43,306 bases of DNA, taken from positions 1-43,306 of the forward strand of contig JAGYNR010000007.1 in the NCBI GenBank assembly GCA_018399715.1, read 5' to 3'. A model generated the notes under the pieces. The model was given only the letters and a program-made list of their open reading frames with translations. It made no database searches and was not told the origin of the DNA. Both the position numbers and the translations under genes were made by a program. This DNA is from Desulfobacterales bacterium. GTDB lineage: Bacteria > Desulfobacterota > Desulfobacteria > Desulfobacterales > SKZT01. This document shows positions 19,500 through 42,907 of this stretch, piece by piece (position 1 is the stretch's first letter; every line of letters starts with the position of its first letter).

Positions 19500-19500
19500 A

Positions 19501-19741: not shown

Positions 19742-19807
19742 TAAGTGAAAAATACCAACAGATCAAATGATGCTGGCAAACATCATCAATAATAACGGAG
19801 AATGGAT

Positions 19808-20176
19808 ATGAAAAAAGCAATCCTTATTGTCGACGATGAAACAAACAATATCGAGTTGCTTTCGACCTTTCTAACGATGACTGGCTATAGCGCATTGAGC
19901 GCAGCAAACGGCAAAGAAGCCATTGAAACTGCCTCAAAACTGAAACCGGACCTGATTATTATGGATATCCATTTGCCGGGGATAGATGGTCTGACTGCAA
20001 CCGAATTACTGAAAAAAAATCCTGATACCGGACATATACCCATTGTGGTCGTTTCGGGATATGGGTTGCCCGAGGATAAAAAGATGGCATCTGAAGCCGG
20101 ATGTGATGAATATTTGACCAAACCGTTTGATCTCGCTCAATTAAGAAAAAAAATATCAGGTTTTTTCCCTGAATGA
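19808..20176 (+). CDS. Single-domain response regulator (CheY-like receiver)
   Basis: A 122-residue stand-alone receiver with the acidic pair in ILIVDDETNN, phosphoacceptor Asp in LIIMDIHLPGIDG, Ser in VVVSGYG and Lys in YLTKPFDL. It has no output domain and resembles DivK/Spo0F-like shuttle proteins more than flagellar CheY. The ATG at 19802 is only two bases from GGAG, whereas the ATG at 19808 has the usual 8-base spacing, so the latter is chosen. It lies between the HAD and metallophosphoesterase genes. Its cognate kinase is not adjacent. Confidence 0.9.
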   Translation: MKKAILIVDDETNNIELLSTFLTMTGYSALSAANGKEAIETASKLKPDLIIMDIHLPGIDGLTATELLKKNPDTGHIPIVVVSGYGLPEDKKMASEAGCDEYLTKPFDLAQLRKKISGFFPE

Positions 20177-20225
20177 ATTTAATTGTTTTTCAATTTGAAC
20201 TGTCTGTTTCATTTCCCGAAATATT

Positions 20226-20951: not shown

Positions 20952-21010
20952 TCTGGTGCGATGATATTTTTGTACAAATTTTCAAGCAACTGTTTTCGGG
21001 GGCAGCACCA

Positions 21011-22369
21011 ATGAAAATAGGAAGGTACGAAGTAGTCGGTATGCTGGGAAAGGGCGGTATGAGCCGGGTGTACAAAGTTAAATGTCCGGTAATCGAAAAA
21101 ATTGCGGCGTTGAAACTCTTATCCCCGGATCCGTTGGTGGAAAAATTAATGGGCTTCCGGAAAATTGTGGATCTGTTTGTATCAGAGGCATACACAATGG
21201 CCCAACTTCGACATCCGAATATCGTGACTGTCTGGGATTATGATCAATCCGGCAACAAGCCGTTTTACCTGATGGATTATTTCTGTCATAATCTTGGGGT
21301 GATGATTGGTGAGACCTATCGTACCGACATACCGTCCCGGGTGATCCGTCTGGATAAAGTTATCTACTATGTTCGTCAGATACTTCAAGGTCTTGTCAGG
21401 CTTCACGATGCCGGTATCATCCATCGGGATATTAAACCCTATAATATTTTGATTACCGAGCATGAAACGGCCAAAATAAGTGATTTCGGCCTTTCCAAAC
21501 TCAGGGGTGAAAAATTTGGTGCCCCTTCAAATCTGAAAGTGGGTTCTCCCTGGTATGCGGCACCTGAGCAGGAAAAAAATCCCGATCAGGTTGATTTTTC
21601 GGCTGATATTTACCCGGTTGGTATTATGCTGTATCGTATGCTGACCGGTATGCTTCCGCCGGAAAACCACAAAGAACTCATTGCTCCCAGCCGTTTAAAC
21701 CCGGATTTGGATGAATACTGGGACCACTTCGTTTTGAAGGCCATGGCTACTCACAGTAAAAACCGATTTTCCACCGCTTCTCATATGCTAAAAGAATTTG
21801 AAACGTTGGCTGATGCATGGGAGCAACGAAAAGATAAATTCTGCACGCTGGTTAAATCTCCCGAAGGCCAAAAACAAAAAAAGTACCCCATTTCTCTTCC
21901 ACGATCAACGGATATCAAAGTTCGGCCATCTAAGGCCAAAGATTTTTTTCAACTAGATGACCTTTGGAAGCCGAAAGTTTTTCTTAAAAACGATTTTCAA
22001 CAGAAAACGAAAAATTCAATTATCGACAGGGCAACCGGGCTGATCTGGCAGACATCCGGATCACCTTATCCCATCACCTGGCATCAGGCACAAAATTATA
22101 TCAATACATTAAATGAAAACGCCTTTGATAGCAGGAGTGATTGGCGCCTTCCCACTATCAATGAACTGACGACCCTTCTGACAAATACTCCCCATGGGGA
22201 AGATTTTTGCATGGAACCGGTTTTTGACCGGAAACAAAAATGGTTATGGAGTTCGGATCGACGTTCCTTTATGGCAGCCTGGTATGTTAATATGGATTTG
22301 GGATTTGTGGCCTGGCATGATTTCAGCGGATATTATTATGTCAAAGCTGTTTGTAAAAAAAGACAATAA
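21011..22369 (+). CDS. Hanks-type Ser/Thr kinase with C-terminal DUF1566 (Lcl-like) domain
   Basis: A 452-residue soluble kinase. The kinase domain (about residues 1-270) has the glycine loop GKGGMSRVYKV, the ATP-binding Lys in AALKLL, HRDIKPYNIL, DFGLSK and YAAPEQ, so catalysis should be intact. After a basic linker (about 275-335) the C-terminal ~110 residues match the DUF1566/Lcl pattern: DRATGLIWQ, TWHQAQNYINTLN, DWRLPTINEL, WSSD and the closing KAVCK. That domain is usually extracellular or periplasmic, but no membrane segment separates the two, so here it would be cytoplasmic, perhaps sensing a ligand. Nearby PP2C and FHA genes give a plausible writer, eraser and reader set. Confidence 0.9.
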   Translation: MKIGRYEVVGMLGKGGMSRVYKVKCPVIEKIAALKLLSPDPLVEKLMGFRKIVDLFVSEAYTMAQLRHPNIVTVWDYDQSGNKPFYLMDYFCHNLGVMIGETYRTDIPSRVIRLDKVIYYVRQILQGLVRLHDAGIIHRDIKPYNILITEHETAKISDFGLSKLRGEKFGAPSNLKVGSPWYAAPEQEKNPDQVDFSADIYPVGIMLYRMLTGMLPPENHKELIAPSRLNPDLDEYWDHFVLKAMATHSKNRFSTASHMLKEFETLADAWEQRKDKFCTLVKSPEGQKQKKYPISLPRSTDIKVRPSKAKDFFQLDDLWKPKVFLKNDFQQKTKNSIIDRATGLIWQTSGSPYPITWHQAQNYINTLNENAFDSRSDWRLPTINELTTLLTNTPHGEDFCMEPVFDRKQKWLWSSDRRSFMAAWYVNMDLGFVAWHDFSGYYYVKAVCKKRQ

Positions 22370-27081: not shown

Positions 27082-27217
27082 AAATAAATCAAAAAGGAGC
27101 TTTTACATATTCAAAGGGAAGTTCAGTGGTATCCGTAATTTCAGGAAATGCTGTATCATTTCCTTATTTGATTTTTTGGTATTTAACATGCCCTTAGAAG
27201 AAAATGAGAAAACATTT

Positions 27218-27631
27218 ATGACAGAAGATATTCAACGAATTCTCATTGTGGATGACGAACCTGAGTTTGTAAAGACAATTTATCGTCATTTGAGGAGAGA
27301 AGGGTTTGCTCTGTATAGCGCTAATGATGGAAAAATGGCCAAGGAAGAGATACAAAACGCTTTTGCACAAGGGCTTCCGATACAACTGGTCATTACGGAT
27401 GTCCTGATGCCCAGGTTGGATGGAATCGAACTGTTGACATGGATAAAGCAGATACATCCTGAAATTTCCGTTATTGCTGTGTCTGGATTTGCTGACACAT
27501 TATTGGCAGGCAAGCTGATTCGCCCCGAAATGGATGAATATTGTCAGAAACCGTTCACACCTCAAGAGATGATGTTGCTTTTGGAACGAGTTCAGGAAAA
27601 ACGAAGAAATCATGAATTTGATCATGAATAG
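27218..27631 (+). CDS. Single-domain response regulator heading the chemosensory operon
   Basis: A 137-residue receiver: ILIVDDEPEF, phosphoacceptor Asp in LVITDVLMPRLDG, Ser in IAVSGFAD, Lys in YCQKPFTP. A short charged tail (RVQEKRRNHEFDHE) follows and no output domain is present. The frame is open from a TTG at 27176, and an ATG at 27188 also exists. ATG 27218 places the first strand at the normal distance and has a GAG-containing weak ribosome binding site. It is the first gene after the sigma-54 promoter and its structured leader, and it lies 22 bp before the first CheB-like gene. It is a likely phosphoacceptor of the operon's CheA. Confidence 0.85.
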   Translation: MTEDIQRILIVDDEPEFVKTIYRHLRREGFALYSANDGKMAKEEIQNAFAQGLPIQLVITDVLMPRLDGIELLTWIKQIHPEISVIAVSGFADTLLAGKLIRPEMDEYCQKPFTPQEMMLLLERVQEKRRNHEFDHE

Positions 27632-27653: not shown

Positions 27654-28883
27654 ATGTTGATATTCTGTGAAGAATGTGGGGAGAAAATGGATATCATTTT
27701 AGATCAGAAGAACGCTACGCCCAGACATCTGAGGTGTCCTGGTTGCGGCGAGCTTCTTACCGTCAAAAATAATATACAAACCGCCAGCCTGGAAAGTCCG
27801 GAGGAGAATCTTCCGGATTCGTTGCAATTTGAAAAAGGCAATCAACCCCTTAAGCGCCAAAAGGTTCTGATTGTTGACGATTCGCTGTTGATTCGGCGTG
27901 CAATCCGTCGGATCTTTGAAGGCAACAACAGACTTGAAGTTGTTGGAGAAGCGGCTAACGGTGCCCAAGCTCTGGATTTAATTTCGCAAGTAAATCCGGA
28001 TGTCGTCACCTTAGATGTCAACATGCCAGTTATGGATGGTTTAACGACATTAAAGCACATGATGATAAAAACCCCTAAACCTGCCGTAATGATATCCACG
28101 TTGACCAGGGAAGGTGCTTCTATAACATTTGATGCCCTCAAATACGGTGCTGTTGATTTTATTCCTAAGCCTTCCCAGACCAGCGGTAAAAGTTTGGAAA
28201 AACAGCACGAAACAATTATCCGAAAGGTTTCACTGGCTGCTCGGGTGGAAACAAGGGCTATTCAATATTTACGTTCTGTTGAATGTGAAAAAAAATCAGA
28301 AAATGCTTTACCCGCCAAGAGACTTTTTGCTCTGGGTGCCTCGGAAGGGGGTTACAGTTCATTATTAAAAATCATTCCGCTGCTCAGCCCGGAAATTCGT
28401 ACTGCCTTTCTGGTGATTTTGTATGCAGAGCCTATGTATGTGGATGCGTTTGCCAGATATTTAAATGAACACAGCAGGATAAGCGTTTTAAACGCCAAAA
28501 ACGGGGATTTGATAGAGGGAGGAACCTGTTACCTGTGTTCTGGTGAAGAGTATCTGACCGTTGAAAAGTCCGGCAGTTCCTATCGTTTACAGGTAAGTCC
28601 TAATCCGTTTCCCAACCGTCGTGGGACCATCAACATGCTCATGATGTCCGTAGCGGAAACGTTAACGGACAAATCGGGGGGCGCTATATTATCGGGATCC
28701 GGATTTGATGGACTGGAGGGCCTGCGGGAAATCCTGCGGCAGGGAGGTACCGGTATTGTGCAGCATCCCAAAACCTGCCTTTGCAAAGAAATGCCGGTTT
28801 TTGTCTTAAACAATCTGAGCATAAATAATATCATACCCGACAGAGACATTGCGGACAAAATTAATGAAATGGATATACATTAA
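27654..28883 (+). CDS. Zinc ribbon-receiver-CheB-like protein, catalytic His missing
   Basis: A 409-residue protein in three parts. Residues 1-45 are a zinc ribbon (CEECGEKM and LRCPGCGELLTV). Residues ~69-190 are a receiver with KVLIVDDS, Asp in VVTLDVNMPVMDG and Lys in FIPKPS. Residues ~221-405 have the CheB methylesterase fold. Of the Salmonella CheB triad, Ser164 is kept (GASEGG) and Asp286 is kept (SGSGFDG). The QHM block with His190 reads YAE, so the catalytic histidine is Ala. It is probably not an active methylesterase but could dock on receptors or CheA in a phosphorylation-dependent way. The frame is open from 27612, but ATG 27654 has AGAAGG upstream and starts the zinc ribbon. Confidence 0.82.
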   Translation: MLIFCEECGEKMDIILDQKNATPRHLRCPGCGELLTVKNNIQTASLESPEENLPDSLQFEKGNQPLKRQKVLIVDDSLLIRRAIRRIFEGNNRLEVVGEAANGAQALDLISQVNPDVVTLDVNMPVMDGLTTLKHMMIKTPKPAVMISTLTREGASITFDALKYGAVDFIPKPSQTSGKSLEKQHETIIRKVSLAARVETRAIQYLRSVECEKKSENALPAKRLFALGASEGGYSSLLKIIPLLSPEIRTAFLVILYAEPMYVDAFARYLNEHSRISVLNAKNGDLIEGGTCYLCSGEEYLTVEKSGSSYRLQVSPNPFPNRRGTINMLMMSVAETLTDKSGGAILSGSGFDGLEGLREILRQGGTGIVQHPKTCLCKEMPVFVLNNLSINNIIPDRDIADKINEMDIH

Positions 28884-28939
28884 ATGGATGTTAAAAATAT
28901 TTTGTTTTTCAACTTTTAAGGAATCGGAGGAATATCATA

Positions 28940-31546
28940 ATGTTTAAAAACATGAAGCTCGGAGTAAAATTGCTGATAGTCGGTTGTTTGTTAACAATAC
29001 TGCCGCTTTTGATTGTCGGTGGCGTAGTTCTTTATCAAAACAGCCAGATGCTGAAAGTATCGGATGAGGAAAGTACTAAACTGGCTTACGCAGACTTAGA
29101 TCATATTGCACAAAATATGTGGTCCATTTGCGATACACAGAACGACCTTCAGGAGCAGACCCTTCGCAGCTACCTGAGAATGGCTCAGGAGCTGGTTAAC
29201 AAAGAAGGTGACTTTTCTTTAGGCACTCAAACGATTAGATGGACATGTATGAACCAGTTTTCAAATAATGTTGATCAGGCTGAACTGCCTCAGATGCTGA
29301 TCGGAGGAAAATGGCTCGGCCAGGTCACATCTACGTCCCAAACAGTAGCCATCGTAGATAAGGTACAAAATCTTACCGGAGGTGCTACCTGTACGGTTTT
29401 TCAAAAAATGAACGCGGCAGGAGATATGCTTCGGGTAGCTACCAATGTTTTGAAAGCCAATGGAAACCGCGCCGTTGGAACGTTTATTCCCTACATGAAT
29501 CCGGATGGCAAGCCTAACCCGGTCGTGTCAAGTCTTCTTCAGAGTCAGACATATGTCGGAAGAGCATTTGTTGTCAACAAATGGTATACCACCGCTTATC
29601 ATCCTATCCATAACAAAGATAATCAGGTGATCGGCGCACTTTATGTAGGCATTCCCCAGGAAAGTGTAACAACTCTTCGGGAAGCTATCATCGATACGGA
29701 GGTTGGTAAAACCGGCTATGTTTACGTTTTGGACAGTGAAGGTAACTATGTTATTTCCCAGGACGGAAAACGTGACGGTGAATATATCTGGGAAGCCAGA
29801 GATGAGGACGGAAACCTGTTTATTCAGGAAATTATCAGCAAGGCATTGTCATCGGGAAAACAGGAAATTACCGAGGTTCGCTACCCCTGGAAAAACCCCG
29901 GAGATCCTGCTGCCCGTATGAAAGTGGCCAGAATTATTTATTTCGAACCGTGGGATTGGGTGATTGGTGTTGGTTCATACCTGGAAGAGTTTTATGACAG
30001 TACCAACCGGATGAAAGACTTGAGCAACAGAGGTAACCTTATCTTTTTAGGAATTATGGCAGTATCCCTGCTGGCCGCCGTTGTGATCTGGCTGTTTACA
30101 TCGAGAACAATTGCCAACCCGATTGTTAATATTGCTGATACGGTCAGAAAAATTGCATCTGAACGGGATCTGACCCTTTCAGTGCCGGTAGAAAGCCGTG
30201 ATGAAGTCGGAAACATGGCCGCAGAATTTAACAATATGGTACAACAACTAAGGGAATCTTTTGTGCTGGTCAATACATCGGCAGAAAAGGTTGAAAGTCA
30301 TGCAAGTGAGGTTTCCCAGCGGGCAACATCCAACAGATCCAGAGCTGAAAACGAAGAAAAACGAACCGGTGAGGTACAGAAAACCGTCTCCGAAATGGGG
30401 TTGACAGCCGGTGAGGTAGCACAGCTATCCCAGGCACAGAGCGAGTCAGCCACCAATTCTAATAAAAGTATTCAGGAACTTGTTAAATCAATGTCGAGTA
30501 TCGCTGAATCCAGCCGGGCTCAGATCGATGAAGCCAACAGGGCAACGGAGCGTGTTGAGGCTATGGGTGAAACCGGCGCTAAGGTTGTGGCAACCGCCAG
30601 AAACCAGGGTGTTGAGGTTTCCCGGGTTACAGAAGCTATGAATGAAATTGCAAAGGCTGTTGATGAAATGACCAAGGTAGCCAAACAGTCTACAGATCAT
30701 GGTAAGGAAGTGCTGGCGGCTGCCCAGGAGGGTGCTAATTCGGTTAACGCCACAGTTGAAGGTATGAAAGCCATTGCAGAATCCTCAGATCAGATATCGG
30801 AAATTATTTCTGTAATCACCGAAATCGCAGAGCAAACAAACCTGTTGGCCCTGAACGCAGCCATTGAGGCAGCTCGTGCCGGTTCTCACGGAAAGGGTTT
30901 TGCAGTCGTTGCAGATGAAGTTGGTAAGCTGGCACAACGTTCATCTGAGGCAGCTAAAGAGATTACACAGCTTATCAAAGACTCTACGAACAGAGTTAAT
31001 GAGGGAACCAAGTTAACCGATCAATCCCAGATGGCTTTGATGAAAATCACCGAAGGCGGTAAAGTGAACATGGATGCTATTGAGGAGATTTCCCAAACGG
31101 CCAATAGTCTGGCTGATGGTACCCAGCAGGTTCATGAGATGATGAAAAGTTTGAACGCTCTTGCACAGGAAATTGAAAGCATGGCAGGTCAGCAGGGTGC
31201 CCGGCGTGAGGATGCTCAAAAGGCACTGGCAGCCCTGGTGGAAAAATCAGGAGTTATTGCCAAGCTGGTTGAAGAGGCACAACGTGTATCTAACATGGTT
31301 AGCCAGCAGATGGATGACATTGTTGAACGTACCGAAAACATGAAGGGTCTTACTGACCTTCAGGCCGGACGATCCAAGAACCTGGTACAATTAAGTAATG
31401 AATCTGCCGAAGCATCTAAAATGACGGTGGAAGGTGCCGGACAGGTTGTGGGCATTACCGGGGAACTTCAGGAGCTTTCATCAGTCCTTACCAATCAGGT
31501 TGCCCAGTTCAAGGTTAATGAACAAAAAGCCGGGCAAACCGGTTAA
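28940..31546 (+). CDS. Methyl-accepting chemotaxis protein with periplasmic Cache sensor
   Basis: An 868-residue inner-membrane chemoreceptor. A membrane segment (about 8-32) leads into a large periplasmic Cache-type region (about 35-355; [18 protein letters not shown] and [13 protein letters not shown] mark the second subdomain). The second membrane segment is about 365-387, followed by a HAMP domain (about 388-445) and a long coiled-coil signalling domain. The hairpin tip [19 protein letters not shown] (about residue 630) is fully conserved, so it should bind CheW and CheA. The C-terminus ends NEQKAGQTG, without the aromatic pentapeptide that tethers CheR. GGAGG precedes the ATG. It is the only receptor gene in the operon, so the sensed compound, probably a small organic solute, should define what the system responds to. 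Confidence 0.96.
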
Positions 31547-31583
31547 TAACGGGCATAGATTCTGTCACAACGACAATAAACGG

Positions 31584-31623
31584 GCAAGACGGCTATCATT
31601 GAACCATATTATCGCCGTCTTGC
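31584..31623 (+). promoter_or_regulatory. Intercistronic hairpin between the receptor and CheW genes
   Basis: GCAAGACGGC (31584-31593) and GCCGTCTTGC (31614-31623) form a perfect 10-bp GC-rich stem with a 20-base loop. No U-tract follows, so it is unlikely to be a full terminator. It could stabilise the receptor mRNA 3' end or cause partial attenuation, lowering expression of the downstream genes relative to the receptor. Confidence 0.5.
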
Positions 31624-31650
31624 TTATGGATAAAAAAGGGGATTAAAAAA

Positions 31651-32166
31651 ATGCAACAGGAAGCCTACACTAGGGAGACAGAACAGGTAGAGAAAGAACA
31701 GCTCATTCAGCTGGTGGGCTTTATGATCGGGAAAGAATATTTCGGTGTCGATATTCTTATGGTGCAGGAAATCATCCGATCAACGCCTATCACGGCTGTT
31801 CCCAACTCCCCGGATTTCATTGAGGGAGTAATCAATCTTCGCGGCAGCATTATACCCGTCATCGATCTTCGTAAACGTCTCAATTTACTAAAAATCAAGG
31901 ATAAAGAAAACAAAGAGAAAGAGGATATCTGGATTATCATTCTTGATGTAGAAGGCCGAACTACCGGTTTTATCGTAGACATGGTTACCGAGGTGTTAAA
32001 AATTCAAGAGGATTCTATTGAATCTCCTCCGGAGATCGTATCGGCTGGATTGAAAAGCCAATATATTCGAGGTGTATGTAAAATCGATAAACGGCTTTTG
32101 ATTTTGCTTGATTTCAACCGTATTCTGCTTCTGGATGAAATCAAAAAGCTTAAAGACGTCGATTAA
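31651..32166 (+). CDS. cheW: Chemotaxis adaptor CheW
   Basis: A 171-residue CheW-fold coupling protein linking the receptor tip to CheA. Family motifs include LVGFMIGKEYFGVDILMVQEI, TAVPNSPDFIEGVINLRG, IPVIDLRKRL and IIILDVEGRTTGFIVD, with the closing FNRIL. An insertion of charged residues (IKDKENKEKED, about 83-93) enlarges one loop relative to E. coli CheW. AGGGG precedes the ATG. It lies downstream of the receptor gene behind a strong hairpin and 22 bp before a CheY-like gene. Confidence 0.95.
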   Translation: MQQEAYTRETEQVEKEQLIQLVGFMIGKEYFGVDILMVQEIIRSTPITAVPNSPDFIEGVINLRGSIIPVIDLRKRLNLLKIKDKENKEKEDIWIIILDVEGRTTGFIVDMVTEVLKIQEDSIESPPEIVSAGLKSQYIRGVCKIDKRLLILLDFNRILLLDEIKKLKDVD

Positions 32167-32188
32167 AATTAATAAGGAATTTAAGAAG

Positions 32189-32533
32189 ATGGGCAAACGC
32201 ATTTTAATTGTTGATGACTCATCCATTATGAGAAAGATGATTACAAAAACCCTGAAAGCAGGGGGACACACTATTGTTGGAGAAGCAAAAAACGGAAAAG
32301 AGGCCGTAGCTCTTTATAAAGAATTGAAACCAGACTTGGTTACGATGGACATCACCATGAGAGAAATGGACGGGTTTGCGGCTGCTAAAGAAATTCTCAG
32401 TGATGATCCCGACGCTCAAATTATTTTTGTCTCCAACCTGGATGAAAAAAAATATGGAGAAGATGCAACGCAATTGGGCGCCATGGGCTATGTCAGTAAA
32501 AATAAAACCCAAAAACTGTTGGACCTGATATAA
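32189..32533 (+). CDS. cheY: CheY-like response regulator
   Basis: A 114-residue receiver: ILIVDDSSIMRKMI, phosphoacceptor Asp in VTMDITMREMDG (Arg replaces the usual Pro), the Thr/Ser position occupied by Ser in FVSNLDE, and the conserved Lys in YVSKNKT. It is on the short side for CheY, and the C-terminal helix ends abruptly at LLDLI. The frame is open from 32108 inside cheW, but ATG 32189 has AAGGAA upstream and gives the normal N-terminus. Whether it addresses a flagellar motor, type IV pili or something else cannot be told: no motility genes are in the window. Confidence 0.88.
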   Translation: MGKRILIVDDSSIMRKMITKTLKAGGHTIVGEAKNGKEAVALYKELKPDLVTMDITMREMDGFAAAKEILSDDPDAQIIFVSNLDEKKYGEDATQLGAMGYVSKNKTQKLLDLI

Positions 32534-32630
32534 GTTGGCCTTTGTAAAAACCTTAGAAAGAATTAACAAAATTATTTTTGATTGTAATGCTTTCTGCCCC
32601 GATTACGAACAACATGTCTGGAGCATGTGA

Positions 32631-33323
32631 ATGAGCTGTAATATCAAATTGAAAAATCTATCCTTTCAAAAAGTAATCTGGGGATGTTTTATACTTTTTT
32701 TTCTCGCCACTGTTATGGTTATTATATTCATAACATACGAATTGGAAGAAACGTCATTAAGGCAACAATTGCTTGACAAATCATCGGGATCTGTATCCTC
32801 TCCTGCATCGAATACCGATCTTCAGGATCATGTACTGGAATATTTTCGAAAACTCAAACATCGTATCTTTTGGGCTTTGGGAATATTGTTTCTCGGTACT
32901 GCCGTGTTATTTTTGTTAACGGTTCGCACCATTACCAACCGCCTTGAAAAGGTTATCCAGGGCACCCGTAAAATATCTCTGGGACAATTAGCGGTTTTCA
33001 TCCCGGTTCAACCTCATGATGAAATCGGAAAAATCGGCGAAATGATTAATGATATAGCGGCAAACTTTCAGGAAATTTTTCTGAGTCTTTGGAATCACAC
33101 AGAAAGCTGTATGTATACCCTGGAACAACTACGAAATCATTTTCAAATGTCCCCAAAGGTTCCGGATAAACTGGAGGATACCCTGGAACATTTAGATACT
33201 GACCTGGAAGGAATGCAAACCATCATTAAAAGTTTCGAATTTTATGATATTTGTTTAGAAAACGGAAAGATAATGGCTCTTGAAAAAACTGAAAAGAAGC
33301 CATCTGCAGCAGTTAACAAATGA
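32631..33323 (+). CDS. Membrane protein with HAMP domain only
   Basis: A 230-residue inner-membrane protein. Two membrane segments (about 15-35 and 81-101) enclose a ~45-residue periplasmic loop too small for a standard sensor domain. A HAMP domain follows (about 102-155; RTITNRLEKVIQGTRKISLGQL and DEIGKIGEMIND). The C-terminal 75 residues are predicted helical (LEQLRNHF, LEDTLEHLDTDLEGM), with no kinase, receptor or cyclase domain. It resembles a receptor with its signalling hairpin removed. GGAG precedes the ATG. Its place between cheY and cheA suggests a structural or modulatory partner of the array. No named family is recognised. Confidence 0.7.
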   Translation: MSCNIKLKNLSFQKVIWGCFILFFLATVMVIIFITYELEETSLRQQLLDKSSGSVSSPASNTDLQDHVLEYFRKLKHRIFWALGILFLGTAVLFLLTVRTITNRLEKVIQGTRKISLGQLAVFIPVQPHDEIGKIGEMINDIAANFQEIFLSLWNHTESCMYTLEQLRNHFQMSPKVPDKLEDTLEHLDTDLEGMQTIIKSFEFYDICLENGKIMALEKTEKKPSAAVNK

Positions 33324-33412
33324 AATTTTCTGCTGATTCAAAAAAGAATAACCTTTTGATTTCATATAACTTACAGTGGGAAAGTGAACGGTAACTTGAG
33401 AGGAGAAACACC

Positions 33413-36325
33413 ATGATCGACTATTCAATGCTTCAGGAATTTATCACTGAGGCTGGAGAACATCTGGATGAAATGGAAAGCGATCTTCTTCAATTGGAAG
33501 TGGATCCTGAAAATCGGGATATTCTGAATGATATTTTTAGAGAAACGCATTCCGTTAAAGGAGCTGCTGAATATGTCGGGCTGGAAAAGATCGCCACGCT
33601 TTCCCACCACCTGGAGAATTTGTTGGAGATTCTCCGGCAGGGAAAGATTTCGGTCACCCACAACATTATTGATCTTCTTATCAGCGCAAGGGATCGAATG
33701 GTCAGATTAACCGATGAACTGGATCGATTTAATAAAGAAAAGACCGAAATTGAAGATATTCTGAAGCTAATACACGGATATTCGGGCGAGGATCAACTTC
33801 CGGAAGAAAAAGCTGAAAACAGCACATCTGTCGACGATACTGAACCTGAAGCGATAAACCTTGATGATTTGGAACAGGAAATCGATGAAAAAATAGAAAA
33901 TGAAAATTCCAATTCGGATGAAATTTATGAAGAAGATTACGATTCCGAATTATTCGGCATTTATTTACAGCAGCTTGAGGAAATCATCTCTTATATACAA
34001 ACGCAAGCCCTTCAACTTCCTGATGCTGATAATTCTGAAGAAATTCTAGATGATATTGTTAAAAAAATTGAAAGTCTTCGGTCTTCAGCCAATTATATGG
34101 GATATGAATCTCTGGTCAATATTTATAAAAAGTGGATTGACGAAATCAGGGATGTTCAGGAAGGAATTTCTTTGGGTGAATCGGTATCCTTTCATTTCAT
34201 GAAAGATTTTACGGATAAAATTGTATCCAGATTTCCCAAATTAAAAGAAACTTTTTCTGAAAAGACAAAAGAACGCCCTAAGGTTCACGATCATATTTCA
34301 GAAGATACTCAGGCTTTACAAGAAACAATTATTGAAGCAGATTCTACAGAAAATGATGAGGATCTCGATTTCGATGATGTCATTCAAAATGAGTTGGATT
34401 TTTTCGATGACGAACCTGAAGAACGGGAACCGGCAGCCACACAAGAAAAAGATGATATAAATCTGACGCTTGATGATGAACAAAAGCAAGATACAGACAG
34501 CACTTTTGATGAAGGTTCAATACAGAGCGAAAAGCAGGGAATATCCAAAAAAGACGAAGATATTGAAGTAATAGATCTTTCCGAAATGGAACTTCTGATA
34601 GACGATCAAAAGCTTTATGATAAGCTTGATAAAGCTTTTGATTCTACTGCCGAGGGTCTTATGGACCCGGTCAGTGTTAAACTTGATGAGGAACTCTTCT
34701 CCCCTGTTGATGTTACCCATGTTGACCCCCTACCGGATAAATCCTTTTCAGAACCATCTGTTCAAAATCTCGATAAAAGCGGTGAATCGGTTGAAGCGTC
34801 GTTTTTTGAAACACAAACGGACCAGCCTGTTTCTGAAAATCCTGAAATTCTTGAAACAGAAGCAGAAATAACACCAGGCTCAACATCAAGTGAAATTCCC
34901 ATGGAGAAGACAGAAACCGAAGAAGCATCTGAACCTCCTGAAAAAATTATTGAGCATCGGCAAAAATCAGTATTTGGTGAACGGTTGGTCAAACAGACAC
35001 TTCGTGTAGATGCCAAAAAAATTGATTCTTTAATGAATCAGGTTGGAGAGCTGGTCGTCAGCAGGGCTTGGTTTTCCCAACTGTTCAATGAAATGCGGGA
35101 TTTTCAGCAGTATCTTAAGGAAAGCATGAGCCTGGATAAAAAAGAGATGAAACAGGTTCGGGGCCTTACGTTCCGGCTCAGTGAAGCCACTGTTAATCTC
35201 GGAAGGGTAGCGAATGAACTTCAGGAAGGTATTATGAAAGTACGCATGCTTCCCATATCTAATCTGTTTAATCGCTATCCCAGACTTATTCGCGATCTTA
35301 CCAGGGAGACCTCTAAAAAAGTGGAACTGAAAATTAAAGGGGAGGACACCGAGCTAGACAAAATGATCATTGAGCAAATTTCCGACCCGATGGTCCATAT
35401 ACTTCGAAATGCCGTTGACCACGGAATAGAACCGACCGATGAAAGGATTGCAAAAGGAAAACCCGAAACCGGGAATATCATCCTGGAGGCATATCATGAA
35501 AGTAATCATGTCGTGATTGAAATCAAGGATGACGGAAAAGGAATCAATCCGGAAACGATTAAAGAAACGGCACTCCAAAATGGTTTTATATCCCGTGAGG
35601 AAGTAGATCAGATGACACCCAAAGAAATTATTTCACTGATCATGAAGCCTGGTTTTTCCACTGCGGGAAAAGTGACGCATACCTCCGGACGAGGGGTGGG
35701 CATGGATGTTGTCAAAAAGAATGTGGAAAAGCTTAACGGAACTCTCGAAATTGATTCCCGGCTGGGAAAAGAAACCCAATTCCGAATTAAGATTCCATTA
35801 ACTCTTGCTATCATCGCAGCACTCATGGTGCGGGTGGGAAAAGACCTGTTTACTGTTCCCTTAGCGAATGTAGAAGAAACCATCCGGATTTTCTATGAAG
35901 ATATCACCACTATAGAAGGTGTCGAAGTGATCTATCTTCGCAATACAACCTTACCGCTGATTCGACTATCGGAAATCTTTGGAATTTCATCGATGGAGAA
36001 AGATCACAAAAAGGCTTTTGTCGTAGTGGTCAGTACCGGCATGCGTAAAGTCGGCCTGGTGGTTGATTCCCTTATCGGTCAAGAAGAAGTGGTCATTAAA
36101 CCTTTGGTAGATTATCTTCAAGAAAACAGTGGTTTTTCAGGTGCCACCATTTTAGGTGACGGAAGTATTTCTCTTATTTTGGACGTATACGAACTGGTCA
36201 ACTTAACGATTGGCAACAGGCTCCGTCAACTGGGTCTGGGAACTTTTCAAGGCAGTACTTCCCAATTAGGGGACAGTGAAAAACATTCTATCAAGAAAAA
36301 ACTATCAACAAGCACGATTCATTAG
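33413..36325 (+). CDS. cheA: Chemotaxis histidine kinase CheA, large form
   Basis: A 970-residue CheA. Residues 1-110 are the HPt domain, with His46 in RETHSVKGAA. Residues ~172-282 form a second HPt-like helical bundle in which the position of the His reads Glu (IESLRSSANYMGYESL), so it cannot accept phosphate. A long acidic, low-complexity linker (about 285-510) replaces a recognisable P2 domain. The dimerisation helices start near VDAKKIDSLMNQVGELV (about 530). The ATPase domain (about 626-800) has HILRNAVDHGIEP, DDGKGI and TSGRGVGMDVV. The CheW-like domain fills about 802-936. Catalytic motifs are intact. AGGAG precedes the ATG. At least six receivers in the same operon could be its targets. 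Confidence 0.95.
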   Translation: MIDYSMLQEFITEAGEHLDEMESDLLQLEVDPENRDILNDIFRETHSVKGAAEYVGLEKIATLSHHLENLLEILRQGKISVTHNIIDLLISARDRMVRLTDELDRFNKEKTEIEDILKLIHGYSGEDQLPEEKAENSTSVDDTEPEAINLDDLEQEIDEKIENENSNSDEIYEEDYDSELFGIYLQQLEEIISYIQTQALQLPDADNSEEILDDIVKKIESLRSSANYMGYESLVNIYKKWIDEIRDVQEGISLGESVSFHFMKDFTDKIVSRFPKLKETFSEKTKERPKVHDHISEDTQALQETIIEADSTENDEDLDFDDVIQNELDFFDDEPEEREPAATQEKDDINLTLDDEQKQDTDSTFDEGSIQSEKQGISKKDEDIEVIDLSEMELLIDDQKLYDKLDKAFDSTAEGLMDPVSVKLDEELFSPVDVTHVDPLPDKSFSEPSVQNLDKSGESVEASFFETQTDQPVSENPEILETEAEITPGSTSSEIPMEKTETEEASEPPEKIIEHRQKSVFGERLVKQTLRVDAKKIDSLMNQVGELVVSRAWFSQLFNEMRDFQQYLKESMSLDKKEMKQVRGLTFRLSEATVNLGRVANELQEGIMKVRMLPISNLFNRYPRLIRDLTRETSKKVELKIKGEDTELDKMIIEQISDPMVHILRNAVDHGIEPTDERIAKGKPETGNIILEAYHESNHVVIEIKDDGKGINPETIKETALQNGFISREEVDQMTPKEIISLIMKPGFSTAGKVTHTSGRGVGMDVVKKNVEKLNGTLEIDSRLGKETQFRIKIPLTLAIIAALMVRVGKDLFTVPLANVEETIRIFYEDITTIEGVEVIYLRNTTLPLIRLSEIFGISSMEKDHKKAFVVVVSTGMRKVGLVVDSLIGQEEVVIKPLVDYLQENSGFSGATILGDGSISLILDVYELVNLTIGNRLRQLGLGTFQGSTSQLGDSEKHSIKKKLSTSTIH

Positions 36326-36329
36326 TTAC

Positions 36330-38153
36330 ATGGAAAACCATCTTAAAACAGTTCTACTGGTGGATGATGAGCCTTTTTTACTGGATGTTCTTTCGGAATA
36401 TCTGGAAATAGATAAGGATGTCTATACGGTTCTTACCGCAAAAAATGGTTGTCATGCACTTGAAATACTAAGCAGCCATAAGATTTCCCTGGTTGTTTCT
36501 GATATTTATATGCCGAAAATGACAGGGCTTCATTTACTTGGTGAGATAAAAAATAAATATCCCGAAATCCCGGTTATTTTAATGACCGCATATAATGCGC
36601 CCCAAATAAAATCAGAGGCAGAGAAAAGTGGATGCCTGCATTTTATCGAAAAGCCGTTTGAGATGGAAGTAATGCGGAAACTTATTTTGGATCGGATAGG
36701 AAAAAAGAAACAGGGCTTTGTCGGTACACTAAAGAACATCCAGCTCACGGATTTGATCCAGATGTGCTGCCTGTCTCCTATCAGCATGGCTATCCGTGTT
36801 ACACAAGACCCCATGAAAGGAACAATTTTTATTCAAGATGGTGAGATTGTCCACGCAGTTTGTGGTGAAACAACCGGTGAGGAGGCCTTTTATTCGATTT
36901 TAGGATGGAAGCATGGTCAATTTGAAACGTTAGGTTCCGGAATTGTTCCATCGAGAACTATTGAAAAGCCATGGCAGTCCCTTCTCATGGAAGCCGCCAG
37001 AAGAATGGATGAACAGGCAAATGAGAACCAAGTAACCGAACCAGAAGAAACGCATTATGAATCCAATCACAAAACAAGTTCAAAAAAAGCTCCTGTTAAA
37101 GTTCTTATCGTTGATGATTCGGCTATGATGTGCAGGGCTCTTGAAAAAATTATCGGTTCAGATGAATCCATTATGGTCATCGGAAATGCAAAAAATGGGG
37201 AAGAAGCCCTTGAAAAAATCAACCAACTTAAACCAGATCTCATTACGCTTGATGTTAACATGCCGGTTATGGACGGCAGCACAGCACTTAAACACATAAT
37301 GATTCGGAACCCCTGCCCGGTAATCATTATCAGTAATATGGGAAGCCAATCCCAGGCAAACATTTTGGATTTTCTTCGCCTGGGCGCTATCGATTATATT
37401 CGAAAGCCGGCATACACAAAAGATATTAAACTACAGCAAAAGCAACTGGTCGAAATGATTCGAATTGCGTCCAAAGCACGGATAGATAACTTTAAAAGGG
37501 TAAAAAACCCAAAAGTTATCTCCGCCAGAAAAGTACCGCACAGTACCAATTTTCCTTGTGAAAGACTTGTAATTATCAATTCGGGGCCGGGAGGATATGC
37601 CGAGACGATGCGGATTATCCCCATGCTACCCCAACGACTTGATACATCAGTGATCGTTTTTCAAAATATGGCAGCCGAATTGGTGTCTCCGCTTTCATCA
37701 TATTTGAACAAACGAAGTCTTTTGCCGATTCTTCCATTAGATGCCGATACTTCCCAGAAAGGTCCTCCAATGCTCGTTGGTGGCCAATGCTATATCGGTC
37801 ACTACAACCAACGGATAAATTTAAGTCAAAATGATAACACTTTTTTTCTTGAAATTACCAATGACAATCCTGCTGAACCGAAAGAAAAGGGAAATCTTTT
37901 TGATTTATTTCTCAAATCAGTTGTTAAAAATTTCTCAGGAAGGATACAGGTAATCTTGCTTTCCGGTGCAGAGGTAGCTTCAACGAAGGGTCTGGAGAAG
38001 GTAAAGAAACATAAAGGCTGGATCATCAGTCAAAAACCGGATACTTGTATGATCCCATATCCGTTACAAGAAGTTGTCGCCTCCGGTCTGGTGGACAAAG
38101 AGGCAAATCCGACAGAAATCGCTACTCTTATTATGCAGAATATGACACCCTGA
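36330..38153 (+). CDS. Receiver-PATAN-receiver-CheB-like protein, no catalytic triad
   Basis: A 607-residue four-domain protein. Receiver 1 is about 1-125 (Asp in LVVSDIYMPKMTG). A DUF4388/PATAN domain follows at about 128-235 (GTLKNIQLTDLIQMCCLSP, GTIFIQDGEIVHAVCG, AFYSILGWKHGQFE). Receiver 2 is about 252-372 (VLIVDDSAMMC, Asp in ITLDVNMPVMDG). The CheB-like domain is about 410-605. There GASTGG reads NSGPGG, QHM reads QNM, and the LTGMGxDG block reads LSGAEVAS. All three catalytic positions are therefore lost (Ser to Gly, His to Asn, Asp to Ala). It is probably a scaffold or signal integrator. The GTG at 36276 inside cheA has AGGGG nearby and is an alternative start; ATG 36330 gives the standard receiver N-terminus. 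Confidence 0.83.
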   Translation: MENHLKTVLLVDDEPFLLDVLSEYLEIDKDVYTVLTAKNGCHALEILSSHKISLVVSDIYMPKMTGLHLLGEIKNKYPEIPVILMTAYNAPQIKSEAEKSGCLHFIEKPFEMEVMRKLILDRIGKKKQGFVGTLKNIQLTDLIQMCCLSPISMAIRVTQDPMKGTIFIQDGEIVHAVCGETTGEEAFYSILGWKHGQFETLGSGIVPSRTIEKPWQSLLMEAARRMDEQANENQVTEPEETHYESNHKTSSKKAPVKVLIVDDSAMMCRALEKIIGSDESIMVIGNAKNGEEALEKINQLKPDLITLDVNMPVMDGSTALKHIMIRNPCPVIIISNMGSQSQANILDFLRLGAIDYIRKPAYTKDIKLQQKQLVEMIRIASKARIDNFKRVKNPKVISARKVPHSTNFPCERLVIINSGPGGYAETMRIIPMLPQRLDTSVIVFQNMAAELVSPLSSYLNKRSLLPILPLDADTSQKGPPMLVGGQCYIGHYNQRINLSQNDNTFFLEITNDNPAEPKEKGNLFDLFLKSVVKNFSGRIQVILLSGAEVASTKGLEKVKKHKGWIISQKPDTCMIPYPLQEVVASGLVDKEANPTEIATLIMQNMTP

Positions 38154-38193
38154 AATTAGTGGGTTAGAACCTCCTTTCCGGAGCATTAAGATT

Positions 38194-39231
38194 ATGGAAG
38201 ATATTATTAAAATACTTATCGTGGATGATTCGGCCTTTATGCGAAAGGCTGTATCAGAAATTCTTCAGACAGACCCTCAGCTTAGCGTGGTCGGAATGGC
38301 CAAAAATGGTCTCGAAGGCTTGAATATGGCAAAATCTTTATTACCCAATGTCATTATTCTGGATATTGACATGCCGATTATGGACGGGCTTACCGGACTG
38401 AAACATATCATGATCGAATCACCCGTTCCTATTGTAGTTCTTAGCTCCCTGTTTTCCGATGGCGCCATTACTTTCGAGGCCCTCCGCCTGGGCGTAGTTG
38501 ATTTCGTTCCAAAACCATCCGGTGCCATATCCGGAAATATCGGAAAATCCAAGCAACAACTCATTGACAGGGTAAAGCTAGCGCACGCAGTGAACATGAG
38601 TAATATCCGAAGAGTCCGGCTAATGAAATGGAACCCACGGGAACAACTTATTGATATTTATAGGTTCAGGTCTTTGGAGTATATTTTAGCTATCGGTACC
38701 ACCCTGTCCGGGCCGAATACGGTCATACGACTGTTATCCAATCTCTCCCCTATGATTCCGGCATCTGTTGTTGTGGTACAGGAAATATCGCCCAAAATCC
38801 TGAAAGCCTTTGCCAAACAGTTCGATGAACGGGTTCCATGGAAAGTTGAAGCAGCCGAAGATAATATGGTTTTAGAACAAGGAACTTGTTATATCAGTTC
38901 CTATGACAAACTGTTAAGCCTGCAGACAAATAACAATAACGACATCTACCTTAAATATATATCCGGAAATGACAGCCCTCTTGATCTGTTATTTTCTTCC
39001 GCCGCACAAGCGTTTCATCAAAACACCATCGGGGTTTTGTTGACTGGAATCGGAGCCGACGGTACCGATGGATTTGCCAATATTCGTAAAGTATCAGGAA
39101 TTACGATGGCACAGGAAGCCCAAACCTGTGTATATCCTAATCTCACAGATAATGCGATTAAAAGCGGCGTTGTGGATATTGTTTTAGATGAGAACAAACT
39201 TTCAAAAGCGATTGAAACTGTCATAAAATAA
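38194..39231 (+). CDS. Receiver-CheB-like protein, catalytic Ser and His replaced
   Basis: A 345-residue protein with the classical CheB layout: receiver (about 5-125; ILIVDDSAFMRKAV, Asp in IILDIDMPIMDG, Lys in FVPKPS), linker, and methylesterase-like domain (about 165-345). In the latter GASTGG reads GTTLSG (Ser to Thr), QHM reads QEI (His to Glu), while the Asp block LTGIGADG is kept. Hydrolysis of receptor methyl esters is therefore unlikely. It is the third CheB-like paralogue in the operon and the only one with the plain CheB architecture. GGAG lies upstream at a slightly long spacing. It is followed 27 bp later by the ParA-like gene. Confidence 0.83.
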   Translation: MEDIIKILIVDDSAFMRKAVSEILQTDPQLSVVGMAKNGLEGLNMAKSLLPNVIILDIDMPIMDGLTGLKHIMIESPVPIVVLSSLFSDGAITFEALRLGVVDFVPKPSGAISGNIGKSKQQLIDRVKLAHAVNMSNIRRVRLMKWNPREQLIDIYRFRSLEYILAIGTTLSGPNTVIRLLSNLSPMIPASVVVVQEISPKILKAFAKQFDERVPWKVEAAEDNMVLEQGTCYISSYDKLLSLQTNNNNDIYLKYISGNDSPLDLLFSSAAQAFHQNTIGVLLTGIGADGTDGFANIRKVSGITMAQEAQTCVYPNLTDNAIKSGVVDIVLDENKLSKAIETVIK

Positions 39232-39258: not shown

Positions 39259-40203
39259 ATGATCATAGAATGTGAAAAGTGCGGCACAAAGCTCCGGGTC
39301 GATGAAAGCCTGATTAATCCTTCCGGAGCACAGGTTCGATGTTCGGCCTGTTCTCATGTGTTTACGGTCTATCGTCCGGCTATAGTTGAAACCTCGGAGC
39401 AAATGCCAATTTCAGAAAAGAAACCGTCACAGAAATATCCGTCAGCTTATATTTTCACCCTGACGAATCAGAAAGGCGGCGTTGCTAAAACAACCACCTG
39501 CCTGAATCTAGGTGTCGGCCTTTCCCTTCTTAAAAAACGGGTCCTACTCGTGGACTTCGATGTTCAGGCCAGTTTGACTACTTGTCTAGGCTATAAAAAT
39601 ATCGCTTCTTTTTACGATGCTGTCCATGCCGGCAATAATGATTTGTCCCGGGTAATTATCAAATCCAGATATCCATATATTTGGCTCCTGCCGTCCAATC
39701 AGAATATGGTAGTATTCAACAAAAAACATTTTGCCTATGACCGTTTTGAATACATCCTGAAAGAACGGCTTCAAAATGTTGCCAACCGGTTTGATTATAT
39801 CCTTATCGATACGCCCCCGTCCATGGAGTTTTTTACGGTAAACGCCCTGACCGCTGCAAACCGGGTCATTATCCCATCGAATTGTGAATTTCTTGCAACC
39901 CAGGGTGTACATCAAACGCTTAATTTCATGCACATCATCAAAGAACGTACAAACACCGACATTGATTATAATATTCTGGTTACCATGTATGATGATCGTG
40001 ATACCGTATCGCAGATGATTCATTCCAAACTCAGAAAAATGTATGGCGAAAAAATTTTCAAAACCGTCATCAACATAGATACCAAGGTAAGGGAATCGCA
40101 GGTTATGAATATGCCCATCATCTACTACTACAAACATAGTCCATCTGGTCTGCGCTATATCAGCCTGGCAAAGGAGGTTCTTGAAAGCGCTATTCATGGA
40201 TAA
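39259..40203 (+). CDS. ParA/MinD-family ATPase with N-terminal zinc ribbon
   Basis: A 314-residue protein. Residues 1-36 are an MJ0042-type zinc ribbon (CEKCGTKLRVDES and VRCSACSHVFTV). Residues ~65-310 are a ParA ATPase with deviant Walker A in NQKGGVAKTTTCLNL, Walker A' in VLLVDFDVQASLT, and Walker B in YILIDTPP. Chemosensory operons in Vibrio and Rhodobacter encode related ParA proteins (ParC, PpfA) that position receptor arrays, and this is the most economical role here. No ParB is adjacent, which argues against plasmid or chromosome partition. The zinc ribbon resembles that of the first CheB-like protein in the operon. The stop overlaps the permease gene by 8 bp. Confidence 0.88.
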   Translation: MIIECEKCGTKLRVDESLINPSGAQVRCSACSHVFTVYRPAIVETSEQMPISEKKPSQKYPSAYIFTLTNQKGGVAKTTTCLNLGVGLSLLKKRVLLVDFDVQASLTTCLGYKNIASFYDAVHAGNNDLSRVIIKSRYPYIWLLPSNQNMVVFNKKHFAYDRFEYILKERLQNVANRFDYILIDTPPSMEFFTVNALTAANRVIIPSNCEFLATQGVHQTLNFMHIIKERTNTDIDYNILVTMYDDRDTVSQMIHSKLRKMYGEKIFKTVINIDTKVRESQVMNMPIIYYYKHSPSGLRYISLAKEVLESAIHG

Positions 40204-40969
40204 CAGAAATAAATATTCCCGATACCTCTTTCCTGCTGTTTCATTTTTAATGATTTTATTTTTCTGGTTGCTTTTATCCCGATTTTCTGGTTGGAGCAAA
40301 TCGGTTTTTCCGGGTCCCCTTCAGGTATTTGAAAGCCTGTGGGGATTAATCTTGAACGGGGTAATGGTAAAACATGTTGTTGCCAGTCTTTACAGGGTAA
40401 CTATAGGGTTTTACTTAGCTATTTTATTAGGCATTCCTATGGGTATTATACTGGGCCGGATAAATATCGCTAAGTCTTTTTTAAATCCGGTGCTCCACTT
40501 TCTGCGCCCTATTTCACCTCTGGCGTGGATACCGCTTGCGATGCTATGGTTCGGCATTGGAGATAAGCCTGCCATATTTCTTATTTTTCTTTCAAGTTTT
40601 TTTCCGCTGGTAGTCTCGACAACGGTAGCGGTCGCTAATATCGATCCGGTTTTTTTCCATGTAGCTGCCAACTTTAATTTCAATCGCTACGAACAATTAA
40701 AAAAAATAATAATTCCGGCTATTTTGCCGGAAGTCGTTACCGCCCTGCGAATCTCAATTGGTATTGCATGGCTGGTTGTGGTAGCAGCAGAAATGATTGC
40801 AGTTAAATCAGGACTCGGCTATCTTATTTTAGACAGCAGGAACGCTCTGAGGATGGATTATGTTATGGGAGCTATGATTGTAATCGGTATTATCGGACTT
40901 TTTCTCGATGTTCTCATGAAACGTCTTAGCAAAATTGAACCGGTTTTCTGGGGATCCATCGGTTCATAA
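40196..40969 (+). CDS. ABC transporter permease, NitT/TauT (SsuC/TauC) type
   Basis: A 257-residue inner-membrane protein with about six membrane segments. It has the FPGPLQVFESL loop, the conserved GIPMGIILGR and LRPISPLAWIPLAMLWFGIGDKP segments of nitrate/sulfonate/taurine permeases, and an EAA-type loop LKKIIIPAILPEVVTALRI that contacts the ATPase. ATG 40196 overlaps the ParA stop by 8 bp. A TTG at 40181 lies only three bases from AAGGAGG and is less likely. It is the first of three transporter genes at the end of the chemosensory operon. The substrate could be a sulfonate, nitrate, cyanate, pyrimidine or similar small solute. Confidence 0.9.
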   Translation: MDNRNKYSRYLFPAVSFLMILFFWLLLSRFSGWSKSVFPGPLQVFESLWGLILNGVMVKHVVASLYRVTIGFYLAILLGIPMGIILGRINIAKSFLNPVLHFLRPISPLAWIPLAMLWFGIGDKPAIFLIFLSSFFPLVVSTTVAVANIDPVFFHVAANFNFNRYEQLKKIIIPAILPEVVTALRISIGIAWLVVVAAEMIAVKSGLGYLILDSRNALRMDYVMGAMIVIGIIGLFLDVLMKRLSKIEPVFWGSIGS

Positions 40970-41064
40970 CATCTTGAGCAGTCATAAGTCAGGTTAGCCG
41001 GAAATGACCGACCCACAAACTCCTGCTGATTATTGCTTTCCGATGTGTATGGGGAGAGGATGGC

Positions 41065-41862
41065 ATGGGACATATATTGATTGAAAATCTCGGAAAAACA
41101 TATATTGACAGGCGTCGAAAGCAGCGAAATTCCAAAGACAAAAACAGGTCTCCCGGAACTCAGGTGCAGGTTTTAAAAGATATAAACCTCGAATTGGAAG
41201 ACGGCGAAATGGTGTGTATCCTGGGACCATCCGGATGTGGGAAATCTACTCTTTTACGAATAATCGCAGGTTTTGATCGCCCGTCTGAGGGAACTGTCCT
41301 GATTGATGGAAAACCAGTCAAAGGTCCCAGTTCTGATCATATATTCGTATTTCAGCATAGTTCTCTTCTACCGTGGATGACCGTCAGACAAAATGTTGGA
41401 CTCGGTCTCCGACATATGAATGATAAGAAAGCGATGGGGAAACAAATTGAAGAATACATTGAAATGGTGGAACTCGAGGGATTCGAGGATCACTATCCCT
41501 ATCAGCTTTCGGGCGGTATGAAGCGACGTGCAGAGCTGGCCAGGGCTCTGGCGGTAGACCCGGATATTCTTTTTATGGACGAACCATTTACAGGGCTGGA
41601 TTATCTGACCCATCTGAAAATACGGGAAGAAGTCGTCAATATGCATGAGTTTTTGGGAAAAACAACCCTTTTTGTTACCCATGATATTGATGATGCGCTG
41701 GTTATGGGAGACCGTATTGTGGTTTTAAGCGGCAGACCCGCCAAAGTTAAGCTTTCCCGAAAACTTACGTATGTACGACCGCGTGATTTCATGAAAGAAA
41801 AAGGCCTTAGCGAACTGCGAGAGGAAGTTTTTTTCATGCTGGGAGTTCATTATGCGGTTTAG
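41065..41862 (+). CDS. ABC transporter ATP-binding protein, NitT/TauT type
   Basis: A 265-residue ATPase: Walker A GPSGCGKST, Q-loop in FVFQHSSLLPWMTV, signature LSGGMKRRAELARALA, Walker B ILFMDEPFTGLD, and the switch His in FVTHDIDDAL. The LPWMTV and HDIDDAL segments are characteristic of the SsuB/TauB/NrtD group. An insertion of basic residues (RRRKQRNSKDKNRS, about 13-26) interrupts the first strand region and is unusual. GAGAGG precedes the ATG. It lies 95 bp after the permease gene and overlaps the binding-protein gene by 11 bp. All catalytic motifs are intact. Confidence 0.95.
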   Translation: MGHILIENLGKTYIDRRRKQRNSKDKNRSPGTQVQVLKDINLELEDGEMVCILGPSGCGKSTLLRIIAGFDRPSEGTVLIDGKPVKGPSSDHIFVFQHSSLLPWMTVRQNVGLGLRHMNDKKAMGKQIEEYIEMVELEGFEDHYPYQLSGGMKRRAELARALAVDPDILFMDEPFTGLDYLTHLKIREEVVNMHEFLGKTTLFVTHDIDDALVMGDRIVVLSGRPAKVKLSRKLTYVRPRDFMKEKGLSELREEVFFMLGVHYAV

Positions 41863-42907
41863 AAGTTCAAACCATATCCCTGTAGCCTGGTGGATCATTT
41901 GGGCTGCAATTATCTGGCTGTTGCTCATCTCATACCTTCATTTATATCTTAACGGTCAAAATATCAACCGAAATATCATTAATATGGGATACATGCCGGT
42001 TATTACAAATCTGGCATGTCCATTGTTGGATTATGCCAGTCGCAGCGGCGTTGGTATCCAGTTTAACGCCATTAAATTTTCCTCCTTTGCCGAAATGGCT
42101 GAAGCGCTTCGAAATGATGACATCCAGGTAGCCTTTATTATCGCTCCCCTATCCATCGTGCTTCAACAGCAAGGAGTAGATGTCAGGGTTATTTGTATCG
42201 GAAACCGACATGAAAGTACTCTGGTAACTGCCAAATCACAAAAAATTCATTCAATTACTGACCTGGCCGGAAAAACGGTCGCAGTGCCGATGCGCTATTC
42301 AGGCCACAACCTGAGCATGCTTCAACTGATGGAAAAATACGGCATGGAAAAAAAAATAAATATAGTTGAAATGAACCCCCCGGACATGGCTTCCGGCCTC
42401 ACTACCGGTTCTCTTTCCGCTTACTATGTAGGTGAACCCTTTGCCGCCCAAACCATAAAAAATGGAGATTCATGTGTTTTGTTTTATGTTGAGGAAATCT
42501 GGCCTGATTTTATCTGCAATCTGGTTTTGGTTCGCCAGGCATTCATCGATAAAGATCCCAATGTGATCCAAACCCTGGTGACCGGAGCCGCCCGTTCTGG
42601 CATATGGGCGAACCAACATCCAAAGGAAACAGCAAAGATTGCCAGCCAATACTGGAATCAGCCATCCGAACTGATCGAATACGCCCTCACCCATCCCGAA
42701 AATAGAATTATCTATGACCATTTTGTTCCACGAGTAGCAGAACTTCAGCAGCTCGCAGACCTGATGCAGCATTTCAACCTGGTTGTTTCCAATGATATTA
42801 CAGGGCTGGTAGAAGACCGTTTTGCCAAAAATGTCAATCTCAACGAGGTAACCAATCTCGACAGTATTTTCAGACCGCCCTTATTCATTGGAAAAAAAGC
42901 AAAATAG
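41852..42907 (+). CDS. Membrane-anchored NMT1/SsuA-like solute-binding protein
   Basis: A 351-residue type-II solute-binding protein for the adjacent permease and ATPase. Residues ~11-33 form an uncleaved-looking membrane helix (WWIIWAAIIWLLL) without a lipobox or signal cleavage motif, so the protein is probably tethered to the inner membrane. The binding domain has INMGYMPVITN, VAFIIAPLSIVLQQQGVDV, ITDLAGKTVAVPMRYSGHN and YYVGEPFAA, typical of NrtA/SsuA relatives. GGGAG precedes the ATG. The stop TAG takes its last base from a dispersed repeat that starts at 42907. It is the last gene before a strong terminator. Close linkage to the receptor suggests it might also present ligand to it; this is speculation. 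Confidence 0.9.
   Translation: MRFRSSNHIPVAWWIIWAAIIWLLLISYLHLYLNGQNINRNIINMGYMPVITNLACPLLDYASRSGVGIQFNAIKFSSFAEMAEALRNDDIQVAFIIAPLSIVLQQQGVDVRVICIGNRHESTLVTAKSQKIHSITDLAGKTVAVPMRYSGHNLSMLQLMEKYGMEKKINIVEMNPPDMASGLTTGSLSAYYVGEPFAAQTIKNGDSCVLFYVEEIWPDFICNLVLVRQAFIDKDPNVIQTLVTGAARSGIWANQHPKETAKIASQYWNQPSELIEYALTHPENRIIYDHFVPRVAELQQLADLMQHFNLVVSNDITGLVEDRFAKNVNLNEVTNLDSIFRPPLFIGKKAK

Follow-up and report, generated by a model that had tools for sequence, protein, structure and literature searches.

Three CheB-like proteins in one chemosensory cluster

Can a CheB whose catalytic triad is broken still be a working part of a chemosensory pathway, and what would it then do? The question is raised by the window, a stretch of 43,306 nucleotides from a Desulfobacterales draft genome (G000; 2.58 Mb, 77% complete), in which a collinear chemosensory cluster houses three CheB-like paralogues, here called B1, B2 and B3; no other CheBs were detected in this genome. 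CheB is by definition treated as an enzyme, and domain-based annotation would label all three proteins methylesterases. A first-pass annotation had reported three such paralogues here, none with an intact Ser-His-Asp triad, and Pfam searches and alignments to Salmonella CheB bear this out. The gene order is response regulator-B1-MCP-CheW-CheY-HAMP membrane protein-CheA-B2-B3-zinc-ribbon ParA-ABC transporter, with the following features:

27206..27631, + strand: single-domain response regulator (Pfam Response_reg, 9e-22), just upstream of B1 and overlapping the first possible start of B1
27654..28883, + strand: B1, with a zinc-ribbon-like N-terminal segment, a receiver and a CheB-fold effector; triad Ser-Tyr-Asp, Thr165 equivalent Glu
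28940..31546, + strand: MCP, with Cache3-Cache2, HAMP and a long signalling domain
31651..32166, + strand: CheW (Pfam CheW, 1.9e-38)
32192..32533, + strand: CheY-like single receiver (Pfam Response_reg, 2e-26)
32631..33323, + strand: membrane protein with a HAMP domain, a C-terminal segment that is conserved, and no recognised output domain
33413..36325, + strand: CheA, with Hpt, dimerisation, ATPase and CheW domains
36330..38153, + strand: B2, with receiver, DUF4388, receiver and CheB-fold effector; triad Gly-Asn-Ala
38194..39231, + strand: B3, with a receiver and a CheB-fold effector; triad Thr-Glu-Asp
39259..40203, + strand: ParA/MinD-type ATPase with an N-terminal MJ0042 zinc ribbon
40181..42907, + strand: nitrate/sulfonate/taurine-type ABC transporter (permease, ATPase, binding protein), its synteny kept at most orthologous loci

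B1 starts either at 27612 or at the in-frame ATG at 27654, and its match to the DZR zinc ribbon scores under the curated cut-off. The MCP and the CheA are the only ones detected in the window's genome. Many of the orthologous clusters keep the HAMP membrane protein, placed between CheY and CheA; a CheZ-like role, suggested by its C-terminal segment, was rejected, no CheZ-type motif being evident in an alignment read by eye.

Loss of the triad and retention of the fold

All three proteins pass the Pfam CheB_methylest profile, with 116, 67 and 136 bits for B1, B2 and B3 against a cut-off of 24, and all show the receiver plus CheB_methylest architecture expected of the methylesterase. Each carries one or two receivers, and alignment confirmed the phosphoacceptor Asp in every one of them, as the first-pass annotation had stated. 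The models of B1 and B3 are likewise close to the CheB methylesterases of Salmonella (1a2o) and Pectobacterium (6ymz) in receiver, linker and CheB effector fold, with a full-length TM of ∼0.8–0.9. They differ from these enzymes, as B2 does, in the broken triad, and all three score below the NCBIfam curated CheB cut-off of 293 bits (B1 273.4, B2 253.2, B3 266.6), whereas four ordinary CheBs taken from related genomes reach 413–434 on the same profile.

The residues opposite the catalytic Ser164, His190 and Asp286 of Salmonella CheB were read from two independent alignments, phmmer for B1 and B3 and MAFFT for all three, and the complete triad is present in none of them: B1 has Ser-Tyr-Asp, B2 Gly-Asn-Ala and B3 Thr-Glu-Asp. 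The earlier readings of B2 and B3, and of the Ser and Asp of B1, were therefore right; the residue taken as Ala at the His position of B1 is Tyr, the Ala lying one residue further on (V-I-L-Y-A-E-P opposite Salmonella I-T-Q-H-M-P-P). In B3 the conserved motifs QEISPKI and CVYPNLT replace QHMPPGF and CVVFGMP. Because Ser-His-Asp is kept by all 30 ordinary CheBs in our comparison tree, most of which come from related genomes, the loss in the window is not a chance outcome. The fold, which had been thought intact, is borne out for B3 and B1 by AlphaFold models with mean pLDDT of 88 and 91, respectively, which among PDB entries match full-length CheBs best (TM to 1a2o of 0.89 and 0.80).

Fate of the triad across orthologues

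In a tree of 218 CheB-family proteins, B1, B2, B3 and the ordinary CheBs fall in separate clades, and the ordinary controls have Ser-His-Asp in 30/30. Among 77 B3 orthologues, most of them 48–67% identical, 71 have Glu at position 190, 4 have Asp, and one each Gln and Ser, so that the position is acidic in 75/77; Asp286 is present in all 77, Thr165 is replaced by Leu in 74 and the GMP motif by NLT, and the nucleophile position varies between Thr, Ser and Asn. The 55 B2 orthologues have Gly at the nucleophile position in 49 cases and Ser in none, and Asp286 is retained in only 10. B1 is more mixed. Of 48 orthologues, 32 carry Ala and 11 carry Ser at the nucleophile position, 33 have Tyr and 15 have His at position 190, Asp286 is kept in 48/48 and Thr165 is Glu in 47/48, and a full Ser-His-Asp is found in five orthologues (L044:6932-7993, L132:12175-13293, L133:4544-6538, L136:1-804 and L159:2-538). 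Judged from these alignments, the triad replacements are fixed in the B2 and B3 clades, and B1 is a lineage of repeated changes with a few possibly active members; B1 may remain an enzyme in some species. The pocket neighbours of B1 (Thr165 to Glu) and B3 (Thr165 to Leu, GMP to NLT) have also been replaced, and the new residues have since been conserved. The expectation that replacements would prove fixed thus holds for B3 and for B2, whose nucleophile is gone in 55/55, and does not fully hold for B1.

Two of the observations named in advance as counting against a non-catalytic role could be looked for in the sequences. Orthologues with intact triads occur for B1 alone, with none among the B2 and B3 clades, and for B1 they count in part against such a role. 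A compensating nearby His was sought in the orthologue alignment of the B3 effector domain, and no conserved one was found; in the B1 lineage, a His at the Phe195 position, five residues on from position 190, is frequent (33/48), but the window's B1 has Tyr there. These residues bear on the possibility that B1, and perhaps B3, are altered enzymes, which hydrolyse something through a non-standard site made of the B1 His or Tyr with the nearby His, or of the B3 Glu acting as base. The invariant Asp286 of B1 and B3, the few complete B1 triads and the frequent neighbouring His fit this idea, and strong conservation would equally fit an active site. However, there is no conserved nucleophile (Thr, Ser or Asn in B3, mostly Ala in B1) and the effector domain of B3 has no conserved His, and we consider altered catalysis unlikely.

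Effector-domain dN/dS, estimated by the Nei-Gojobori method for pairs of closely related genomes, is 0.03–0.29 for B1, B2 and B3, the figures being rough where dS is high, and by this measure the effector domains of all three are under purifying selection. Simple decay of CheB following the loss of CheR and methylation is hence hardly credible. It would agree with the clusters and the several genomes that have no CheR (see below), but it is contradicted, for the open frames studied, by the low dN/dS, by the ordered fold of B1 and B3 and by replacements that are fixed by lineage; moreover, the frames are open in dozens of genomes and most B3 orthologues remain well conserved. The first-pass annotation had likewise argued against decay, and on this point the ratios and the fold side with it.

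Selection on the effector domains also bears on a subtler reading, in which the proteins serve as phosphate sinks only, their receivers draining phosphoryl groups from CheA while the CheB domains are passive remnants. Extra receivers can act as phosphate sinks (PMC8396549), which favours this reading, as does the phosphoacceptor Asp kept in all receivers. A passive remnant, however, should erode or be deleted, whereas the effector domains are held by purifying selection and the new pocket residues of B3 are near-invariant over very distant lineages. We regard a pure sink function as improbable. On the sequences compared, the core of the claim stands: in B2 and B3 a non-catalytic CheB has long been conserved, and the B1 of the window lacks the His.

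Distribution of the cluster and its methylation partners

When relatives and named genomes were scanned with B3, dozens of Desulfobacterota and Gammaproteobacteria turned out to carry this cluster. Its hosts are Desulfobacterales, Desulfobulbales (among the latter the cable bacteria Electronema and Electrothrix) and, of the gammaproteobacteria, Contendobacter, Competibacter, Venteria and Chromatiaceae; divergent versions occur in Syntrophobacteraceae and in one planctomycete. Within the order, a B3 orthologue is present in 35/242 genomes. Not every locus has B2 (those of G057 and Contendobacter, among others, do without it), so it is not essential to the system. Searches of open-access literature for degenerate or non-catalytic CheB and for CheB in cable bacteria turned up no account of the cluster. 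B3 is found in two copies per genome in L121, G040 (C285, C257) and G094 (C18), on opposite strands of one contig in L121 and G094. The zinc-ribbon ParA and the ABC transporter (39259-42907) keep their place beside the chemosensory genes in different phyla, and the ligand of the receptor and the substrate of the transporter may be shared.

A CheB methylesterase is expected to have the methyltransferase CheR as partner. No CheR was found in the window's genome, at 77% completeness, and a CheR profile search of the cluster loci found none except in the planctomycete L183. There (L183:4017-14816) an ordinary Ser-His-Asp CheB and a CheR stand beside a B3-like (Ser-Gln-Asp) and a B1-like (Gly-Tyr-Asp) protein. 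This locus is a possible intermediate state, and its gene content suggests an origin of the dead paralogues next to a functional CheB/CheR pair, lost afterwards.

The receptor itself is consistent with a pathway free of methylation. The signalling domain of the window MCP has zero matches to the methylation-site consensus, and the same is true of most cluster MCPs examined; seven cluster MCPs retain one consensus-like match. Of 12 ordinary MCPs taken from G018 and G031 as controls, 11 have at least one site; one 830-aa G031 MCP resembling the cluster type was left out of this set.

Could enzymes encoded elsewhere nevertheless serve this receptor, the cluster CheBs being extra regulators? Most cluster-bearing genomes do have CheR and an ordinary Ser-His-Asp CheB on other contigs, and these could act on the cluster receptor; the idea that the cluster generally goes with a lack of CheR was accordingly rejected. 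Yet in G035 (93% complete) CheR is lacking, and the three cluster CheBs are its only ones, alongside a single MCP and a single CheA; G057 (91% complete) has B1 and B3 as its only CheBs, one MCP, one CheA and no canonical CheR, its single orphan, divergent CheR-like gene having no recognised chemotaxis gene beside it. In the window's genome as in these two, the only MCP and the only CheA belong to the cluster and every CheB is dead. Together with the consensus sites missing from the window MCP, these genomes make methylation from elsewhere a rather remote explanation. Four further genomes, G082, G103, G132 and G147 (70–88% complete), have cluster CheBs only and no strong CheR, and G132 has FliM; because these genomes are incomplete and same-genus relatives of G082, G132 and G147 show strong CheR matches, these absences could be gaps.

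A likely type IV pilus output

Because FliM is usually missing, the PilT family is always present and B2 carries a DUF4388 of presumed PATAN type, a pilus output is likely. Of 16 genomes with the cluster, 12 have no FliM, among them the window's own, G035, G057, G031 and those of the cable bacteria, and a PilT-family ATPase is present in 16/16, although in G082 only under the curated cut-off; type IV pilus motors without a flagellar switch, as expected of a pilus-linked system, are thus the prevailing pattern. No pilus-machine gene was recognised inside the cluster. The DUF4388 of B2, which we take to be a PatA-N-terminal-type (PATAN) domain, is kept in most B2 orthologues. On that equivalence, B2 resembles PixE, PixG and LsiR, the PATAN-CheY regulators of pilus-based phototaxis in cyanobacteria, but differs from them in having a dead CheB domain attached. 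The presumed target of PATAN regulators is the pilus, and for PixE an interaction with the pilus motor PilB1 has been reported (PMC7690835). From co-occurrence and domain type, the output of the pathway is likely to be type IV pilus-based surface behaviour, and a likely control pathway for surface movement is thereby flagged in cable bacteria and their relatives.

A proposed model of phospho-gated binding

Taken as a whole, the evidence is best explained by a methylation-independent, probably pilus-linked pathway with phospho-gated, non-catalytic CheB scaffolds, to which we give a probability of roughly 0.6. The signalling core in the window is complete, with one Cache-type receptor, CheW, CheA and CheY, and would lack adaptation by receptor methylation. 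Given their intact phosphoacceptor residues, the receivers of B1, B2 and B3 would be phosphorylated by CheA, and the three proteins would compete with CheY for phosphoryl groups. Once phosphorylated, they would dock through an opened effector surface, the retained CheB fold serving as a phospho-gated binding module presumably for the receptor, the CheA array or a downstream machine, and the DUF4388 of B2 would be the best candidate link to a putative pilus output. Having been kept for very long in many bacteria, the dead CheBs have binding, not catalysis, as their probable mode of action, and the role of phospho-dependent adaptor or receptor cap proposed in the first-pass annotation is plausible. 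More tentative, and doubtful as it stands, is the fuller proposal that as many as three dead CheB paralogues bind stoichiometrically, under phospho-gating, to receptor, kinase or pilus machinery, that such binding has taken the place of covalent receptor adaptation, and that this predates the split of the main desulfobacterial lineages. A widely conserved cluster that retains the CheB fold minus its chemistry makes binding-only adaptation or output control testable.

Some chemosensory systems, such as that of Helicobacter pylori, lack CheR and CheB. The window cluster is like them in having no receptor methylation enzymes for its pathway, but differs in keeping conserved, non-catalytic CheB-fold proteins. 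ParA-type ATPases (ParC/PpfA) position chemosensory arrays, and the window likewise has a ParA-like ATPase in its chemosensory cluster; it differs by the added zinc ribbon, and a localisation role for it is our assumption. Upstream of the cluster, at 16833-22369, the translations read as a PP2C-like phosphatase, an FHA protein and a Ser/Thr kinase with a C-terminal extension near one another.
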